A DNA stretch of 64,000 bases from Spinacia oleracea (lineage: Eukaryota; Streptophyta; Magnoliopsida; Caryophyllales; Amaranthaceae). How positions within the stretch are numbered: the stretch's first letter is position 1; each line of letters starts with the position of its first letter. The position numbers and the translations under genes were made by a program. The stretch is taken from assembly GCF_020520425.1 (NCBI RefSeq), contig NC_079489.1, positions 18,686,001 through 18,750,000 on the forward strand. The letters run 5' to 3'. Shown one piece after another: positions 1,095 to 23,799 of the stretch. The notes below the pieces were generated by a model. The model was not told where the DNA came from. It searched no databases and saw nothing but the letters and a program-made list of their open reading frames with translations.

Positions 1095-1445
1095 TGGGCT
1101 TACATCGACCATTGAGAAAGACCAACTAAGTCCACACACAAAGTGAACTTAGTTGTCGGCAAAGGCTTTGTCAACATGTCGGCGGGATTCTCTTCGGTAC
1201 CAATCTTCTTCAAGAGAAATTCTTTCGTAGATATCACATCTCGAACAAAGTTTTAATTGATGTGAATATGATTGGTTCTCTTGTAGAATGTGTTTTGATT
1301 CTTAGCCAAATGTATGACACTTTGACTATCACAAAACACGGACACCAAGCTTGAACATGGACTAAACTCTCCCACTAGACCCTTGAGCCACTTTGCTTCT
1401 TTGAATGCTTCGGTAATGGCCATAAACTCGGCCTCCGTAGTTGAA
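1095..1445 (-). pseudogene. Ty1/Copia RNase H C-terminal fragment
   Basis: Reading the minus strand from about 1442 gives a clear Copia RNase H end: [20 protein letters not shown], then a stretch with [21 protein letters not shown], an in-frame TAA, NFVRDVISTKEFLLKKIGTE and NPADMLTKPLP. The TAA replaces the usual residue of the HIDVRYHF-type motif, so the copy is dead. Integrase and reverse transcriptase are absent upstream, so only the extreme 3' end of pol remains. With the polypurine tract and LTR below it, it forms a truncated element. Confidence 0.9.
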
Positions 1446-2325
1446 AGAGCTATAATATATATCTTGTAGCGTTGATTGCCAACTCACGGTCGTACCATCC
1501 AAAGTAAAGACATAACTGAAAGTTGATTTCTGGTCATCCAAATCACCTCCATTATCCGATTCACAAAAACCTTCAAGTCCATTTGCATTTCTACCAAAAA
1601 AGTTAGCAGTTTTTTATACCATTTTTCCTTGAATATTGCATGGTCATTATGTGCCTCTTGCATAATAGACAAATGAAAGTGAAATGTTGTTAATTCTAAG
1701 AAGATTATCATGAGATGGTTTGATTAAACTTTAAAACATTAGGACTCGAAAACAATATCTAATGATTTAAAATATTATTGTGATTTATCTTTGAACTACT
1801 GCGCAAAACTTTACCTTTAATGTGACTATGATCTTTTATCATGTCATGTTTAGTCACATGATGGAATATGCTTAGGTGCTATGGAGTATATTACTCATAC
1901 TCTTATTGGGGGTCGTGTCCGACAAGGGAATGGAGGATCCAACACTCTCGATGTAATAAATTTCATACAAGGCCACTATATATTTGGGTATCATGTCGTG
2001 TCGAAGTGACAGAAGATCCGACACCCTATGTCAACCAAAGTATTAAAGTAACATGGCTTAGGTATATACCAAGTATGTCATTGAGGCGGTTAATTTATTC
2101 TTGAATTGGGTTCGTTCGACTAACCGTTTTCATGTTTTTTCACTCCTTTCTCGCTATTGTTTGTTCTAATTTTTTACAATGGTTCAACTTAGATTGTAAT
2201 TGCTTGACTTATAATAATTTCGGTACTCAACTTGAAGTATAAAGCATTTATCAAATTGTTTATATTTATCTTACAATTGATGTTTGAAGTTAGACCGCCT
2301 TTTTCAGTGTTCTAACTATTGTTGT
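1446..2325. other. Intergenic, no gene seen
   Basis: AT-rich sequence between the Copia remnant and the Helitron-like ends. Short open frames here have no recognisable motifs. Around 1900-2000 there is some Copia-LTR-like wording (gtcgtgtccgac, gtatcatgtcgtgtcgaag), too short to call. Confidence 0.5.
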
Positions 2326-15100: not shown

Positions 15101-18100
15101 AGAATGCCGCAACAGAACCCTGCATCAAAACAATTGATGTCATTTTTATGTCCATGGTACAAGCAAAAACTTTCCAGAATGAAATCCACAAGATTTCTTG
15201 ACTTGACGACAACTGAATGTTATATTGTTTACTCAATGAAAGTAACCTCGTCTTACCACAGCAACCCCCAAAACTTGCACAGGAGTAGGATTCAACTCTT
15301 CCAGGATTGCTGCAGCTTCCTGAAAAAGATATTATATGGTCATAAACTCATAATTATATAAAAGTTGGTGTGTCGGGACTTGGGAGGGACCACATACATG
15401 CATACATTCCGAGAGTTTCCTATTGTAATTTTTGTATGCTTTTAAACAACAGAGAAGCAAGTCAGCAACACCTTTAAAGCTGATGATTGCTTTACATCAT
15501 CTGACCACTATTAAACATGGACTCAAATGCACGATTACGACTAAATCCAGCTCAGAGACGTGCTAATCCTCACACTTATATAGTTATATGCATTTATACA
15601 TGACTCGACTTATATTTTTGGTATGAGGGTACTTTCATCTGACAGTTAAGATGTGTGAAATCACAAGCAATCGGGATTACTTTACGAATTTAGTTGCCAG
15701 AAATAATGAATTTCAACTTCAATAATTACCCAGATGTAAAGCACTGAATGTTTACAATTCTTTACCAATGATGTCTTGGCCAAGTGGTTAAGACAGACTA
15801 AGGGTCTCAGGTTCGAATCCCCCTCCCCTTATTTGTAGTTTGTATTGTCCTTGTGGCTCATTTACACCCAAAAAAAGCTCAATTGCACCCAAAAAATTAT
15901 AGCTCTTTGTAAGGCAAGAAAAAATTTAGGCGATATGGGGGAAAAAACAGTCAACGTTACACGAATATGGAGGACCAAAAATCCTCAAAATAAAGAAGTA
16001 TTCAATGTTAAAGTAAATGTTGACTGTCGCACATTGTGATGTTTTTTTAATGTCATAGAGTTTGTGCCTCCTATAACCCAGAGAGCACTGACTTTCCTAC
16101 GACGTCCAACATGATGCAAAGAAAAAAAATCAGCTCCTGCACATAAATGTCATATTTTTATCTCAATCTTGTTTTTTTATTAAACTTGTTATTTGATAGA
16201 AAGAGCTAGGGGAACTGTTTTATGGAATCAACGGATCAAAAAGAATAACAAAGCCCGTAACTCTATTTGGGCTCTAAAGGCTAAACCAGTCATAACTTAA
16301 TTCAAATTTCTTTCATTCTTCTTTTGGGTTGTTGGATGTTAAGTCATTGTTGGCAGTGGAGGTTCCTCTCCTTGAATGTCACGACCCTAGGAAACATACT
16401 GTAGCTAACTGTAAAATGCTGCAAACTAGGTTCCAAAGAAACCCTGATCCCTTCTTTCATCCTGCCTTACGCATCTCTACTTGACATATCACATATGGAC
16501 CTACCATCTCAGTGTTGATTCCGCACAGAGTCAGTCAAATACACTATCTAACTACTGGATTGTTGGTGAAGGAATTTCAAGAAGAAGGCTGAGTGCAACC
16601 CAATACCCAACTATGGAATATCACGCGGGGTGGGGTTGGGGGGGGGGGGGGAGTAGGTAAACCATGCACAAGTTCTAAGTGATTCAAAGAACTAAACACA
16701 GACACAAATCCCCAAGTCTACAAACATTTAAAATCTAAGCATTTTCCTCTGAAAGATTTTCCAGAAAATGGATAGTTGGATACACATCAATAGTCCCATG
16801 AGAAATATGAATAACTGAGGAACTGCAGAAGACTACCTCATTGAGGATGGACATTGCTGTCTCAGGTTTAAGCTCCTTAGCACGAAGGCCATGTTTGACC
16901 CAGGACTTGAAACCACCATGAAGGACATATGGTCTCTGGAACATAGACGGAAATTGAAGATTGGTGAAATTAAAATATACTCCACAAGTAAAGGATATGG
17001 TTGACAAAATGAAGAGCATGCAGAGATAAGCATCGGCAGAAAAAGATTTGATATTTGGGATTGAGGGAGAGAGATTTAATAATTGAGGTTTGAGCGCAGA
17101 AAGATCCATCACAATAAAGACTAGTATAGACTAGAAATACAAACTTACCTTAACCCCAAGCTTCCTCAAGGATCTAGCAATGCCTTTTGCATGACTTCCA
17201 TCAGCATCCATAACTATGATCTTGGAACTGCCCTATAGGTAACACAAGACTTGTAATGAGACGCCATCCAGACATGAAGAGTGACAGTAAGAGGTGTTAT
17301 AAGAGAATGTAGGGATGAGCCATCAAAAAATTTATAAAGAAAAAAACCTAAGGCACACAAAAGAGTTATTCAAGCGGGTTTTCATCTTTGTTTCAGTAAC
17401 AAATAAACATTTGATGGAAATAAGAAAGCAGTAAAACAAAGTAAACATGGAAATATAATAAAATCTACTGCATTTCTCATTCACCTTAATCAACAAGAAA
17501 TATTGTCTTTTATATAGGCTTGAACCAAACTGAATTTGCAAAACAATAGGAAAAACTATCAAAAACTTGGAGTGTTGCTGACATAGTATCCCACTATTCC
17601 ACATTTCCTCCACTAACCTAGTGAGATATCTTAAATTAAAACTAACCAATTTGACTAATCTGACTAATTTGTAAATAACAATTATAATTAAATGACTAAA
17701 ATTAAGGGAACTTTGAAGCACTAACTTTAACACACCCCGTTGCTTCAAAGTTTGATAAAAAAAAATGAAGCACGTCTCTTCATCCATGATGCACTCTCAT
17801 CACCGAAACAATGTTGTTGATGCACGTTTTCACCAACCTCAAATGTCTGGAGCACTTCTCTCCCTTGGTGCACATCATCAAACTTCAGTCTAGAACAATT
17901 TTTCTTCTACGGCCACTTGCGCCTTACATGCTTCCTCGACATTTTGAAGCAAGCAATTCCTTTCCAAATGGCCAAATTTTTTACACTTGAAACATTTTTG
18001 CTTTCCCCTATGCCAAAAAAAAAATTCTTCAAAACCAACCATCTACAATGGTTGCATTTTGGGATTCTTCTTTCCCTTTGTGATACGAATATTTGACCAA

Positions 18101-21100
18101 TAATGCTCCTTCAATTCCATTTTCTTCCTCCCTCATTGATCTTTTTTGGTCTACAGCTTTAAGAGCATTGACCAACTCTCTCAGGGTTATTTTGGTTAGG
18201 TCTTTAGAGTCTTCAAGTGAGGAAATATTTTACCAATATTTTCGGGAACACTCACTAAAACCTTATCAACCACTCTCTCATTGGAAAATGTTTCCCCAAG
18301 CAATCTAATTTGATTAACAGTGGCCATAACTCATAAGTTTACTTACATATTCTTTAATGGTTTCGCTCTTCTTCTTCCTTTGCATCTCAAATTCTAGTTT
18401 GAGGTTCAAAACTTGCATCAACTTTGTTTGAGCATTGCCCTCAAACTTTTCCTTTAGCGGTTTAGCCTATCCCATGCCTCCTTTGGTGTCTCACAAGTCC
18501 TGCTACTCGTAAAGATTTCAACTGACACATCAGAATGAATACATGAAAGTGCCTTTGCTTTCTTCGCCGCTTTTCATCGTGCTTTTTTTTTATTTGGGAT
18601 ACAGTTGGATTTTCTGAAATAGGGGTTGAGTCATCACTCTCGGTTGCTTCCAACAAATTCATGGCTTTCAAATATGATTTCATTTAGATAGCTCATGTAT
18701 TGTAATTCTCTCCTTTAAATGTGGGTATAGAAAGTGACAAAGTATTTGATGCCATTGAGAGAAAGATATGAACACTCAAATAAATTAGGTCTCACAAAGA
18801 TCACTGCCTCTGATACCAATTTGTTGAAAATAAGAAAGCAATAAAACAAAGTAAACGTGGAAATATAACAAAATCTATTGCATTTCTCATTCACTTTAAT
18901 CAACAAGAAATATTGCCTTTTATATAGGCTTGAACCAAAATGAAATTTGCAAAACTATAGGAAAACTATCTAAAACATGGAGTACATGTTGCTGACTTAG
19001 TATCCCACAATTTTCTCCACTAACCTAGTGAGATATCTTAAATTAAAACTAACCAATTCGACTAATCTGACTAATTTGTAAATAACAATTATAGTTATTA
19101 ATTAAATGACTAAAACTAAGGGAACTTTGAAGTACTAACTTCAACACACCCCTTTGCTTCAAAGTTTGATAAAAAAAAAATGAAGCACGTCTCTTCATCC
19201 ATGATGCACTCTCATCACCGAAACAATGTTGTTGATGCACATTATCACCAACTTCAAATGTTTGGAACACTTCTCTCCCTTGGTGCACATTATCACCCTT
19301 CGGGCTAGAACAATTTTTTTTTCTACGGCCACCTATGCCATAGATGCTTACTCGACATTTTAAAGCCTGCAATTCCTTGTCAAATGCCCAAATTTTTAAC
19401 ACTTGAAACATTTTGGCTTTCTCTTATGCCAACAATTTTTTTCATGTTTCTCTCCATGTATGATACGAAGATTTGACCAATAATGCTCCTTCAATTTCAT
19501 TTTCTTCCTCCCTCATTGATCTTTTTTGGTCTACAGCATTAAGAGCATTGAGCAACTCTTTTAGGGTTATTTTTGGATAGGTCTTTAGAGTCTTAAAGTG
19601 AGGAAATGTTTTACTCATATCTTTCGGGAATTCTCACTAAAACCTTATCAACTACTCTCTCATTGGACCGCCCAAGAAATCTTATTTGATGAACATTTGT
19701 CATAAGTTTACTTACATATTCTTTAATGGTTTCGCTCTTCTTCATCCTTTGCATCTCAAATTCTAGTTTGAGGTTCAAAACTTGCATCAACTTGGTTTGA
19801 GCATTGCCCTCAAACTCTTCCTTTAGCCTATCCCATGCCTCCTTTGGTGTCTCACAAGTCCTGATACTTGCAAAGATTCCATCCGTGTCAGCCGATTGAA
19901 ATGCATGAAATTGTCTTTGTTTCTTTGCCGCTTCTTCATTGTGTTTTTTTATTTGGGATACAGTTGGAGTTTCTGGAAGAGGGGTTGAGTCGTTACTCTT
20001 AGTTGCTTAGCACAAATCATGGCTTTCAAATATGATTTCACTTAGATTTCATTAAGATAGTCCATGTATTGTAATTCTCTCATTTGAATGTGGGTATAGA
20101 AAGTGAAAAAGTATTTGATGTCATTGAGAGAAATATATGAACACTCAAATAAAATAGGTCTCACAAAGATCATTGGCTCTGATACCAATTTGATGGAAAT
20201 AAGAAAGCAATAACACAAAGTAAACGTGGAAATATGATAAAAATCTACTGCATTTCTCATTCACTTTAATCAACAAGAAATACTACCTTTTATATAGGCT
20301 TGAACTAAACTGAAATTTGCAAAAAAAAAATAAGGAAAAACTATCTAAAACGTAGAGTACATGTCGCTGACGTAGTATCCCACTATCCCACAATTTCCTC
20401 CACTAACCTAGTGAGATATCTTAAATTAAAGCTAACCAAGTTGACTAATTTGTAAATAACAATTATTATTAAATGACTAAAATTAAGGGAACTTTGAAGC
20501 ACTAACTTTAACATAAACAATCAAAAAGAAACTTGTGTATGATTTTTGCATTAAACTCAAACGTAATCTATAAAGAAGGGAGCAATTTTGATAGTTCAAT
20601 CGTAACAAAAGGAATGGTATACACTAATGCCTTTCTAGAGCCAACAAAAAATTGGATATATTTAGGCTCCGTTTGTTTTAATGGAAAACACTTTCCATAA
20701 ATGATGTTTGTATTGTTAAGGGTGGAAAACTATTTTTCCCAAAGTGGAAAAAAGTTTCATTTTGAAAAGAAGGAATACCATATTTTTCCTATCTACTCCT
20801 ATCCATCTCTCCTTTCCATTTCTATTACCTCTTTTCTCTATAATTTTTCTAGTAAGGAAACAAACACAGGAAAACTATTTTCTCATGATGTTTTCCCTTG
20901 AAAACTATTTTCCATGAAACACATTTTCATTCCATTAAAGCAAATGGAGCTTTGATTAGGAAAAAGAAAAACTATTATAAAATAGCATCCTCTACCACTT
21001 CTCAAAAGTAAAAATAAAAAGTGAACAGAAAATAATGTCACATACATATATAAACTAGTATGAATGAATCATGCAGATTTCATAATGTTGAACTCAAGTA

Positions 21101-23799
21101 GGGGCATTTCTTTTGGGGGAAAGATGGTTGATAATGGTGTTATTGCCGTATAAATGTATAATATCAAGATTACGATAATTAACAGAAGATACAAGGATAA
21201 AAACATACTTGAACATTCTTTAGATCCCGAATCACCACGGATATTAAATTGTCATCAAGGTCTCTGCTGCTCTTCATTAATTTTCTTAAAGAGCTATCAA
21301 CCTGGCATTACAAAAATTTAATGCATTAATTAACAATCCCTGCCCCATAATAAACTACACAGTATCTCTCTTTTGATTGCAGCAAGAATATATATGTTGC
21401 ATGTATAAACATTAATGTATGGAATCTTCTACAGGATATTGTAAGTCAAACCTTGGGCAAGGATACATCTGCATATCGAAATCGAGCTGATCGTCTAAGA
21501 TCAGGGATTCCATCTTGTTGCCGCAGATCCTTCAAGAGTATAAACCACGTAAGTGGCTACCAAAAGATACACAAATAATCACATAAACTTCTAAATAAAG
21601 AAAAATGCAGCCCTACAGGTCACATTTTCCAAGAGAAGAAAACTAGATAAATTTTGATTCATTAGCAATTTTATGCTGCTTCTTAGCAACACTAACTGAA
21701 AACAGCATCATCATGGTATTAATCACTTTTGTATCATGTGAAAAGGCCAGAGAAAAACAGTATCTAACCTCAGGCCTTATGTCTACAAGAACTGCACTTT
21801 CCTTTCCTGATAAGAGCTCAAAAGCCAATTCAGGAGAAATATCTCCAGCATAGCCACTGTAGGTGACCAGCCAATATACAGCCCTGCACAAATCTGGTAA
21901 ACAGCATAAATTTCCTGTAAAAGCATGGAATAACCCCAGGTTACACCAGGAGAAAATATCAGAGTCGGGAGTGCAACATCAATACCACAAAGTAGACGTA
22001 GTGCCAAAGAAAAGAACAAATGGGACAATAGGATCTGAAGGGTCTAGGCCTAAGCTTCTCTCCAGTCCTTCGATGACAGAGTAGACCTGCTCATAAGATC
22101 CATATTTTCAGAATAAGAAAAAACAATCAACAAAGAAACGAAGTAACCATCATTAATGTGAGTTAGTACATGACACATTTAGTAGTTATCATGTCTATAT
22201 GATGCCCTGTGCATTTATATGGCAATCTTTCACTCGCATAACAAAAAGAATTAAGCCACGGTGAGATGCCAAACCATGTTTGAATAGAAAGGAATGCATC
22301 TTAAACCTATCAAAATTTAAGGTATGTTATTATCATTCATGATGAAACAACTGATCAGTAAAAGTTATCAACAAAAAACTTGACCCAACTCAAGTCACAC
22401 AAGATCATTCAAGAGGGAGAAAGAGAGAGTAGAAGCAGAAGCTAAGAGTTAACATCACCTGTAGGAAAACCATGCCCACCGGCCTTGAAATTTCACTAGC
22501 TTTCTCCTCGAATAACTTCACTGCATTTTGGATCTCTGAGGGCAGAAGATCTTTGGAAGTCTCATACGAGTAATAAACAAATTTACCCCCCTTCACCAAA
22601 GAATCTTCCACCACAAAGATAGTCTTTCTTAATAACTCAAGAGCTAGAGTGCCAGCTTTACTGCTGGATTGCTGAAGGTCACTTGGAAGTTTGTTCAATT
22701 TAGAACTAGTAACCTCACCAGCTTGATCAAAAGAAGAGAGCACTTTAGCGGTAAGATTTTCAATTGCGTTATTGCCATCCTTGACAATGTCTGTTATCGT
22801 TGAATTAATCTTATCCACAGAGCTATTCAATGCATCTCCCCCCTCACCAAATGATGCCCTCATTGATTCATTTGTTTGAGAGAGGAGATTATCAAAACTA
22901 CTGCTGGAAGACGGCAATGGCTCAGCATTGATGCCAAGAGTGTCTGGCACATTGCTAGTGCTACCTGCAACGCGATCCAAAATTGAGATTGGTTCTTTAC
23001 TAGGAGGATCTAGCAAGATATTAGCGCTATCCATCATGTTGTCTCCTAGCTGCTCTTCTTGTGACACAGAGGCAGCAGAATCCTCCACATAAGTTAAACG
23101 TTCCCCACCTCTGAAAAAAGAATCACTCATCTTTCCGGTAGTGTAGTGCCATCCATTCAATAAAGTTTTATGTCCATGAAAATCATAATTCAGAGAAGTT
23201 GCAGCTTCTTTTTGAAGGCATGCCCCTTGACAAACTCCACCTGATAAGCTAGGAATTGTCGTGTCTACTGATACGCATTGAACACCAAACACCTTTTGTG
23301 TTCGAGTGAGGTACCTTACTCCATCATTTAACAAGATCTGCACAATCAATATTGGTTGATGTATAAGAAACAATTTCAAAATGTCATTAGCCTTTGCAAT
23401 CCTAGAAAGCATAATGCCTGATGGGATTCACTGTCAAGTACTTAAGAAAGTTAAACCCCAATCATCTCCCAATTATTAAAACATTCTTTACAGCTATAAC
23501 TATGCATCACTTTGTGGATACTAACTACACATGTGATCAAATCCCGATTCTTTGATAATTCCAGTTGATCACCTCCCAAGACACATACACACAGCAAAAG
23601 ATGAAAATGCATCCTAATTAACCCAAACAAACAGCTTCAGAACTAAACAGCAATTTCGAAACTTGTAAAAAGTCATGATTATCCAAGTCAAATGCATCTC
23701 ATTCCAAATTAAGCTAAAAAAAATTAGAAATATAAAGCATAAGCTTAATTTTACCTGTGAGTGAGAAGAACAGCGAGTGGCTGAGCAAACAGGCAACAT
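12140..23799 (-). CDS. Chloroplast rhodanese-like membrane protein, At3g59780 type, 14 exons, 642 aa
   Basis: Exons, 5' to 3': 23799-23755, 23337-22459, 22086-21986, 21883-21769, 21529-21452, 21301-21209, 17232-17149, 16935-16837, 15319-15257, 15119-15089 (31 nt), 14221-14175, 13104-13046, 12374-12140. I count 13 blocks by coordinate; a further non-coding 5' exon is possible. All phases close. The start MLPVCSATRCSSHSQ looks like a plastid transit peptide. Residues 16-308 are a low-complexity, helix-rich stroma-type region; a membrane helix lies at about 327-349 (VPFVLFFGTTSTLWAVYWLV); the rhodanese fold follows (AVLVDIRPE to YVLHGGFKSW); then a second hydrophobic stretch at 513-545 and a Ser/Glu-rich tail. 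The layout matches the plant CaS/TROL group of thylakoid rhodanese-like proteins, which act as scaffolds or regulators. The active-site loop reads DADGSHA, with D446 in place of the catalytic Cys, so sulfurtransferase activity is unlikely. Family assignment is firm; the function is inferred. Confidence 0.93.
14367..14629. mobile_element. Stowaway-like MITE
   Basis: TA-bounded element with left end CTCCCTCCGTTTCGAAATAA and right end reading, in reverse, CTCTCTCCATTTCGATTTAA. The inner terminal sequences GGTTACACTTTGACATT and AATGTAAAGTGTAACC are also inverted. It lies in an intron of the rhodanese-like gene. Confidence 0.9.
15770..15900 (+). mobile_element. Possible tRNA-derived SINE
   Basis: The stretch TGGCCAAGTGGTTAAGAC (A-box-like) followed about 25 bp later by GGTTCGAATCC (B-box) looks like the tRNA-related head of a SINE. 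There is no tRNA acceptor stem. The 3' end was not located; A-rich runs at 15871-15878 and 15890-15896 may belong to it. It lies in an intron of the rhodanese-like gene. Confidence 0.5.
17860..18690 (-). pseudogene. Copia gag (UBN2 type), left copy
   Basis: This region parallels the right gag copy: the same FEGNAQTKLMQVLNLKLEFE core is seen on the minus strand at about 18370-18460, and a zinc-knuckle end at about 17900-18000 reads KFGHLERNC then LLQNVEEACKAQVAVEEKLF. Short insertions and stops break the frame. Differences between the copies show that they have evolved separately for some time. Confidence 0.83.
19250..20040 (-). pseudogene. Copia gag (UBN2/Retrotran_gag type), right copy
   Basis: Minus-strand reading gives CETPKEAWDRLKEEFEGNAQ, TKLMQVLNLKLEFEMQRMKK and SETIKEYVSKL, the typical core of Copia gag. 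A later basic, Cys-bearing segment would be the zinc knuckle, clearer in the left copy. Frame changes and stops interrupt it, so it is unlikely to make protein now. It is one of two gag units in the tandem array. Confidence 0.85.
20664..20951. mobile_element. MITE with GGCTCCGTTTG termini
   Basis: Left end GGCTCCGTTTGTTTTAATGG, right end reading in reverse AGCTCCATTTGCTTTAATGG. The element of about 290 bp has no coding capacity; the (T)GGAAAACT runs inside are also partly inverted. The target duplication is not clear. It lies in the same intron as the tandem LTR element. Confidence 0.75.

Follow-up and report, generated by a model that had tools for sequence, protein, structure and literature searches.

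A tandem gag-only LTR element of Copia type in an intron of a spinach rhodanese-domain gene

A 64,000-nucleotide stretch of the Spinacia oleracea genome (assembly GCF_020520425.1, contig NC_079489.1, positions 18,686,001 to 18,750,000 of the forward strand; hereafter the window) contains at positions 17404-20518 a retroelement array in which three long terminal repeats (LTRs) alternate with two internal regions (INT1 and INT2) that carry gag and no pol. The array is best explained, with a probability of roughly 0.55, as the dimeric complementary DNA (cDNA) of a decayed, non-autonomous, gag-only Copia-type element of the TR-GAG kind (reportedly described by Chaparro et al. 2015), derived from one source and integrated once. 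The evidence for a single dimer integration includes the structure together with a single target-site duplication (TSD), the existence of pol-less siblings with 5-bp TSDs of their own, and the sister relationship of the two units.

The layout was established by direct reading, a repeat search, local BLAST and alignment, the TG...CA limits of the LTRs being taken from family members at other loci whose TSDs are clean (Table 1). The array lies on the minus strand, its sense order being LTR3, primer-binding site (PBS), INT2, polypurine tract (PPT), LTR2, PBS, INT1, PPT and LTR1, with TAAAC on both sides. The three LTRs of the original prediction are present, at 321, 325 and 323 bp; the 324-328 bp given there include a 3-nt spacer. 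The two internal regions put at about 1.05 kb, each with a PBS, a Copia gag and a PPT, are likewise found (1,086 and 1,041 bp), with gag broken and the INT1 domains slightly under cut-off. The PBS reads TGGTATCAGAGG/C in each unit (TGGTATCAGAGG in unit 1, TGGTATCAGAGC in unit 2), presumably belongs to tRNA-iMet, and is separated from the upstream LTR by an AAT spacer. The PPT, GAAGCAA(A/C)GGGGTG (GAAGCAACGGGGTG and GAAGCAAAGGGGTG), stands immediately ahead of the TGTT of the downstream LTR. At the internal junctions the LTR passes straight into PBS or PPT, and no TSD occurs at these points.

The predicted single TAAAC pair does enclose the whole array, provided that the 3-base LTR/PBS spacer stays outside LTR1. 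More specifically, TAAAC adjoins LTR3 directly, and ATT separates it from LTR1, whose start at 17412 follows from the TG...CA ends of the family. Linear cDNA carries the LTR-PBS spacer at its U5 end until integrase trims it. Because the three bases between TAAAC and LTR1 equal the LTR/PBS spacer of both units, the simplest reading is that this cDNA end was integrated untrimmed; such extra spacer bases are absent at the outer LTR ends of three family copies elsewhere (L009, L014 and L019). On an alternative reading the TSD match spans 6 bp (TGTTTA in sense) and the spacer is reduced to two bases. A 5-mer match at the spacing of the array occurs at 113 of 60,880 window positions, a background of 0.19%.

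Gag is the sole retroelement domain of the array, and at least two LTRs with PBS and PPT accompany it, as in TR-GAG elements. Pfam recognises Retrotran_gag_2 clearly in one piece of INT2 (2.7e-14). In INT1 the same domain (4.4e-6, 26.7 bits against a cut-off of 27) and a zf-CCHC domain (5.2e-4, 20.4 bits against 20.8) remain sub-threshold, and six of the nine pieces compared, as well as one further (tenth) piece, gave no Pfam match. The gag type (PF14223, 'gag-polypeptide of LTR copia-type') and the 5-bp TSDs place the array, which lacks pol, with Copia. Gag in both units is broken by stops and frameshifts, so that the open gag frame of TR-GAG elements is lacking, and the window element is a dead member of its family. 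Open gag is present at other loci of the family; among the relatives, L010 matches DUF4219 and Retrotran_gag_2, and L013 matches both of these and a zinc knuckle.

The absence of pol extends to the relatives. The original prediction of a pol-less, non-autonomous element named full-length copies with intact pol and the same LTRs as the finding that would contradict it, and LTR-gag-LTR units without pol as what to look for. Genome searches with LTR1 and with the LTR of a second array found no pol-bearing copy with array-type LTRs, and pol-less units with TSDs were recovered at L009, L019 and L029, along with the second array itself (L013). A 971-aa Copia pol probe (RVT_2, 1.4e-76) was compared by tblastn with 47 sequences, comprising the window and the family loci, most of the latter with 1.5-kb flanks to which the statement on pol extends. 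No pol was found within any gag-only unit among them; its only matches were the element from which it was taken, a stretch at the border of L013 beyond the array there, and, far from the window array, a weak remnant of Copia pol (31% to the probe) at window 1109-1453. Wherever the borders of simple units and arrays were read, the LTRs stand too close together to accommodate pol. A search of the genome with gag, in which the best 150 of 2,145 candidates were scored, gave 22 matches of at least 46% identity, all in the window or in the gag-only or fragment loci of the family; the other matches listed reach at most 37%, some in gag-pol-like frames of 850-1,370 residues. Within these best 150 candidates the gag-only group thus appears to stand apart from other gags.

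These results bear on whether the element instead arose recently by deletion from a pol-bearing family of this genome, which would be compatible with any of the mechanisms considered below. The scoring of 150 among 2,145 gag candidates, the 1.5-kb flanks and a 93-bp LTR match on C2 outside the comparison leave some room for such an origin, but it is improbable given the LTR searches, the gap between the two groups of gag matches and the pol-free interiors of the gag-only units. One copy, at C4:72.93 Mb, was considered as a pol-bearing member and rejected, its LTR being split by another Copia element. That element, from L011 5568 to L012 3649, belongs to another family, has a 971-aa open pol stretch and is nested in the LTR of the gag-only family.

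Across the 894 Mb searched, the family yielded at least 13 matches to LTR1, 31 to INT1 and 15 to the LTR of the second array. Statements based on borders cover L009, L010, L013, L014, L019, L028, L029 and L033; borders at L020-L027 and L034-L046, many of them fragments, are unsettled. Because sibling insertions carry TSDs, the family has moved. The second array, at L013, has the same design as that of the window and belongs to a related subfamily; its two units are 97% alike, and one of its outer LTRs, which has a shortened end, carries an interruption of about 1 kb. An assembly artefact or chance similarity is very improbable indeed as an explanation of the window array, whose units differ by more than 10% and have private indels, and whose design recurs in the second array alongside single copies elsewhere.

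The relationship between the two units is revealing of when the duplication took place. Among 13 units, INT1 groups with INT2 as its sister (bootstrap 99), and the two have 10 derived substitutions in common; the seven other pairings for which such sites were counted have 0-3. Pairwise alignment, proposed as a check of the original prediction, gave 19/312 differences between LTR1 and LTR2, 22/312 between LTR1 and LTR3, 26/309 between LTR2 and LTR3, and 109/1025 between the internal regions. The INT/LTR divergence ratio is 1.48 (1.04-2.28) for the window array, or 0.96 (0.72-1.35) when scaled by L009, and 2.19 (1.13-6.64) for L013. No ratio points to a much younger duplication, and duplication and insertion are of about the same age. 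The outer LTRs are separated by a Jukes-Cantor distance of 0.074 in the window and 0.0137 in the younger L013 array (LTRs 1.3-2.0% apart); if rates of 1.3e-8 or 7e-9 per site per year are assumed, the window array would be 2.9 to 5.3 million years old.

The sister relation of the units and the similar age of duplication and insertion speak against late unequal crossing-over, and a late duplication is unlikely. An early event is a different matter. A single LTR-gag-LTR insertion followed by early unequal crossing-over between its LTRs, on sister chromatids or homologues, would have formed the tandem in place; it would yield the same anatomy, the same single TSD and sister units, and unequal crossing-over has been proposed for plant tandem LTR elements (PMC11899658; PMC7215508). 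Crossing-over nevertheless predicts INT differences no greater than LTR differences, and these are higher in the unscaled ratio or equal after L009 scaling, so that only an early event fits. We regard it as a possible explanation, with less likelihood than integration of a dimer. The choice between unequal recombination and a template switch in the original prediction has therefore been narrowed only in part. Its view that the array arose at one site or moved as one unit is supported by the single flanking duplication. Judged from sequence, the single TSD and the age of the duplication would fit one dimer integration, and early unequal crossing-over nearly as well.

The ratio of nonsynonymous to synonymous substitution rates (dN/dS) in gag provides a further line of evidence. 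Within the arrays it is 0.86 (0.52-1.58) for INT1-INT2 and 1.17 (0.51-5.09) for the L013 units. Between loci of the window subfamily the 95% interval lies below 1 in 28 of 35 pairs (all 35 spanning 0.29-1.02); between L013, L028 and L029 it does so in five of five (0.18-0.44), and three cross-subfamily pairs give about 0.09-0.10 with dS saturated. Gag differences inside both arrays are thus without detectable constraint, a result that is clear-cut for L013 and not distinctive for the window. The contrast at L013 (1.17 versus 0.18-0.44) indicates that both of its gags began alike. Differences by codon position are flat for INT1-INT2 (37/27/30, p 0.45) and equally so for INT1-L009 (36/28/31, p 0.61); INT2-L009 shows a first-position excess (47/20/32).

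A third origin, the joining of two family members that already differed, by a template switch between different RNAs or by recombination of neighbouring insertions, draws on the same data. INT1 and INT2 are 10.6% apart, near their distance from L009 and L010 (10.2-11.5%), and their dN/dS cannot be separated from that of INT-L009. The excess of INT over LTR differences, measured against the outer LTRs by Fisher tests, is weak singly (p 0.065 for the window, p 0.080 for L013) and stronger for the two arrays combined (p 0.011), with dependence on the calibrator. Recombined neighbours, however, would lack a common TSD, the units are sisters with 10 derived sites in common, and the units of the second array are without constraint where its relatives are constrained. 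From the sister relation, the common sites and the neutrality of the second array it follows that any difference between the two RNAs was small, and this origin is decidedly unlikely. Fusion of two diverged elements was initially favoured, as the divergence of INT1 from INT2 equals the between-locus level, and was moved down, not out, by the sister relation and the common derived sites.

Several observations weigh against integration of a dimer of identical units. At the canonical LTR end the flanks read ACATT and TAAAC and do not match, so that the TSD requires the retained spacer; the test of refined boundaries set by the original prediction thus holds with the spacer and fails without it. 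Scaling by L010 gives an INT/LTR ratio of 2.32 (1.62-3.49), opposite to that by L009, and the rate calibration is therefore unstable. The internal regions differ more than the LTRs do, possibly because the two RNAs were not identical to begin with. The two outer LTRs are less alike than LTR1 and LTR2, although the gaps between pairs are small, and the template-switch model of Sabot and Schulman (PMC1950507), as described there, predicts outer LTRs that are nearly identical. Informative LTR sites are too few to separate the mechanisms, one being common to LTR1 and LTR3 and one to LTR2 and LTR3. Finally, the dN/dS of INT1 and INT2 is 0.78 and 0.76 against L009 and 0.62 and 0.73 against L019, with intervals that reach 1. 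Bootstrapping does not separate these values from the one within the array, 32% and 21% of the resampled differences being at or below 0; against L010 none is, and the contrast is plain. L009 and L019 are decayed copies themselves. For the window this leaves room for a dimer built from two sister RNAs that differed slightly, and the fuller dN/dS set has lowered our estimate for a dimer from one source and raised that for two RNAs.

If a dimer was integrated, a pol-bearing element elsewhere would have supplied reverse transcriptase and integrase in trans. The dimer would have arisen when synthesis switched templates from one RNA to another like it at the repeated R region, or else by copying of a circular or read-through template. 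A single integration of this dimeric cDNA would have created the TAAAC duplication, and the three bases at the U5 end of LTR1 would represent its unprocessed end. Both units would have been identical in sequence at first and have decayed in place thereafter.

A broader and rather doubtful proposal is that the family is an old Copia-derived gag-only lineage without a close pol-bearing relative, with subfamilies whose LTRs are well diverged and whose gag is under purifying selection, and in which the borrowed reverse transcription tends to yield joined molecules. The genome holds at least two head-to-tail dimers in different subfamilies, each with one TSD (the window and L013), and possible fold-back products, namely inverted gag within a single TSD pair at L033 and other inverted gag pairs at L036 and L038. 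If this is true, selection would act on the gag supplied in cis, and so short a genome would regularly give rise to dimeric or fold-back cDNA as a by-product.

The gene intron in which the array was predicted to lie is a GT...AG intron of 3,976 bp, of which the array with its TSDs fills 3,115 bp. The minus-strand exons have GT-AG borders, their joined translation is a rhodanese domain, and array and host gene have the same orientation. The insertion at this locus is old and decayed and has no known effect on the host gene.

Some family loci show further peculiarities. At L028, positions 1090-1161 hold 72 bp of the internal 3' end beyond the 5' LTR, as would follow if the plus strand had been primed upstream of the normal purine tract. 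The palindrome of L033 lies at 1509-2401 and is 92% alike; further head-to-head inverted gag pairs occur at L036 1269-2762 (84% alike) and L038 1500-3202 (72% alike). The same gag fragment is found at similar loci in L024, L025, L026 and L027, two on C5 and two on small contigs, perhaps a segmental duplication or unplaced alternative contigs.

Table 1. Features of the window array and of related loci in the same genome (window coordinates unless a locus is named)
Feature	Position	Strand	Remarks
Host intron (GT...AG) of rhodanese-domain gene	17233..21208	-	PF00581, 4.6e-9, joined exon translation
TSD, left copy TAAAC	17404..17408	.	identical to 20514-20518
Three bases (AAT in sense), LTR-PBS spacer at outer end of LTR1	17409..17411	-	identical bases between LTR and PBS in both units
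LTR1 (3' LTR in sense)	17412..17732	-	321 bp, TG...CA
PPT, unit 1	17733..17746	-	GAAGCAACGGGGTG
INT1, internal region with broken Copia gag	17733..18818	-	
Zinc-knuckle piece of gag, unit 1	17893..18042	-	zf-CCHC 5.2e-4, slightly under cut-off
Gag piece, unit 1	18457..18573	-	Retrotran_gag_2 4.4e-6, slightly under cut-off
PBS, unit 1, adjoining LTR2	18807..18818	-	TGGTATCAGAGG
LTR2 (middle LTR common to both units)	18822..19146	-	325 bp
PPT, unit 2	19147..19160	-	GAAGCAAAGGGGTG
INT2, internal region with broken Copia gag	19147..20187	-	
Gag piece, unit 2	19614..20006	-	Retrotran_gag_2 2.7e-14
PBS, unit 2, adjoining LTR3	20176..20187	-	TGGTATCAGAGC
LTR3 (5' LTR in sense)	20191..20513	-	323 bp
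TSD, right copy TAAAC	20514..20518	.	
L009, simple LTR-gag-LTR			TSD AGAGA
L010, simple LTR-gag-LTR			borders AATTT and ATTTT, imperfect
L013, second LTR-gag-LTR-gag-LTR array, related subfamily	L013 3203-7283 (C4:87463702-87467782, C4:87.46 Mb)		TSD AAATA
L014, solo LTR			TSD GATTA
L019, simple LTR-gag-LTR			TSD CCCTA
L028, simple			extra 72-bp internal-end piece beyond 5' LTR, beside GAAA run
L029, simple LTR-gag-LTR			TSD AAAAT
L033, gag-only insertion	L033 698-3317 (C1:56.83 Mb)		TGGCG pair; interior of forward, inverted and forward gag stretches

The window array combines two known things, a tandem LTR element and a gag-only element, both of which are in print. Gag-only LTR elements form the named class TR-GAG (PMC6022998; the name is also used in PMC5818461 and PMC8704663), and at least one gag-only element transposes in Arabidopsis (PMC8704663). 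The likeness lies in LTRs with gag alone and no pol, whereas the window element has a broken gag and the form of a tandem dimer; the literature searched yielded no tandem TR-GAG named as such, which is not a claim that none has been published. The pol-less Athila families, in which gag is under purifying selection (PMC2410132), and RLG_Quinta (PMC11302176) are likewise gag-only and have persisted with the frame of gag intact. These are Gypsy elements with known pol-bearing relatives; here none exceeds 37% gag identity among the matches listed.

According to Morales-Diaz et al. (2025, PMC11899658), tandems of three LTRs within a single 5-bp TSD are common in plants. They resemble the window in their three LTRs, two internal regions, common middle LTR and one 5-bp TSD, and are read there as one insertion; the rice tandems are mostly Gypsy (89% of 66), in contrast to the short gag-only Copia type of the window. 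That survey states the choice between insertion of a dimer and growth in place as open. The Triticeae template-switch complexes (Sabot and Schulman 2007, PMC1950507) likewise have three LTRs, two cores and a flanking 5-bp TSD. The layout of three LTRs and two internal regions (L3I2), with a common middle LTR and, the spacer being retained, one outer TSD, is also that of arrays of terminal-repeat retrotransposons in miniature (TRIMs; Gao et al. 2016, PMC4717578), of which a maize example has the 5-bp TSD GGGTT, and of Cassandra arrays (PMC7215508). TRIMs encode no protein and have no coding domain (PMC4717578, PMC7215508), whereas the window array retains gag pieces. The most useful part of this analysis is the second array and the gag-constraint test that it permits: in an array with a once-selected gene, constraint between loci can be set against its absence between units, a contrast that is clear in the younger L013 array and blurred in the old window array, that is applicable to other young tandem elements, and that offers a handle lacking in the non-coding TRIMs.

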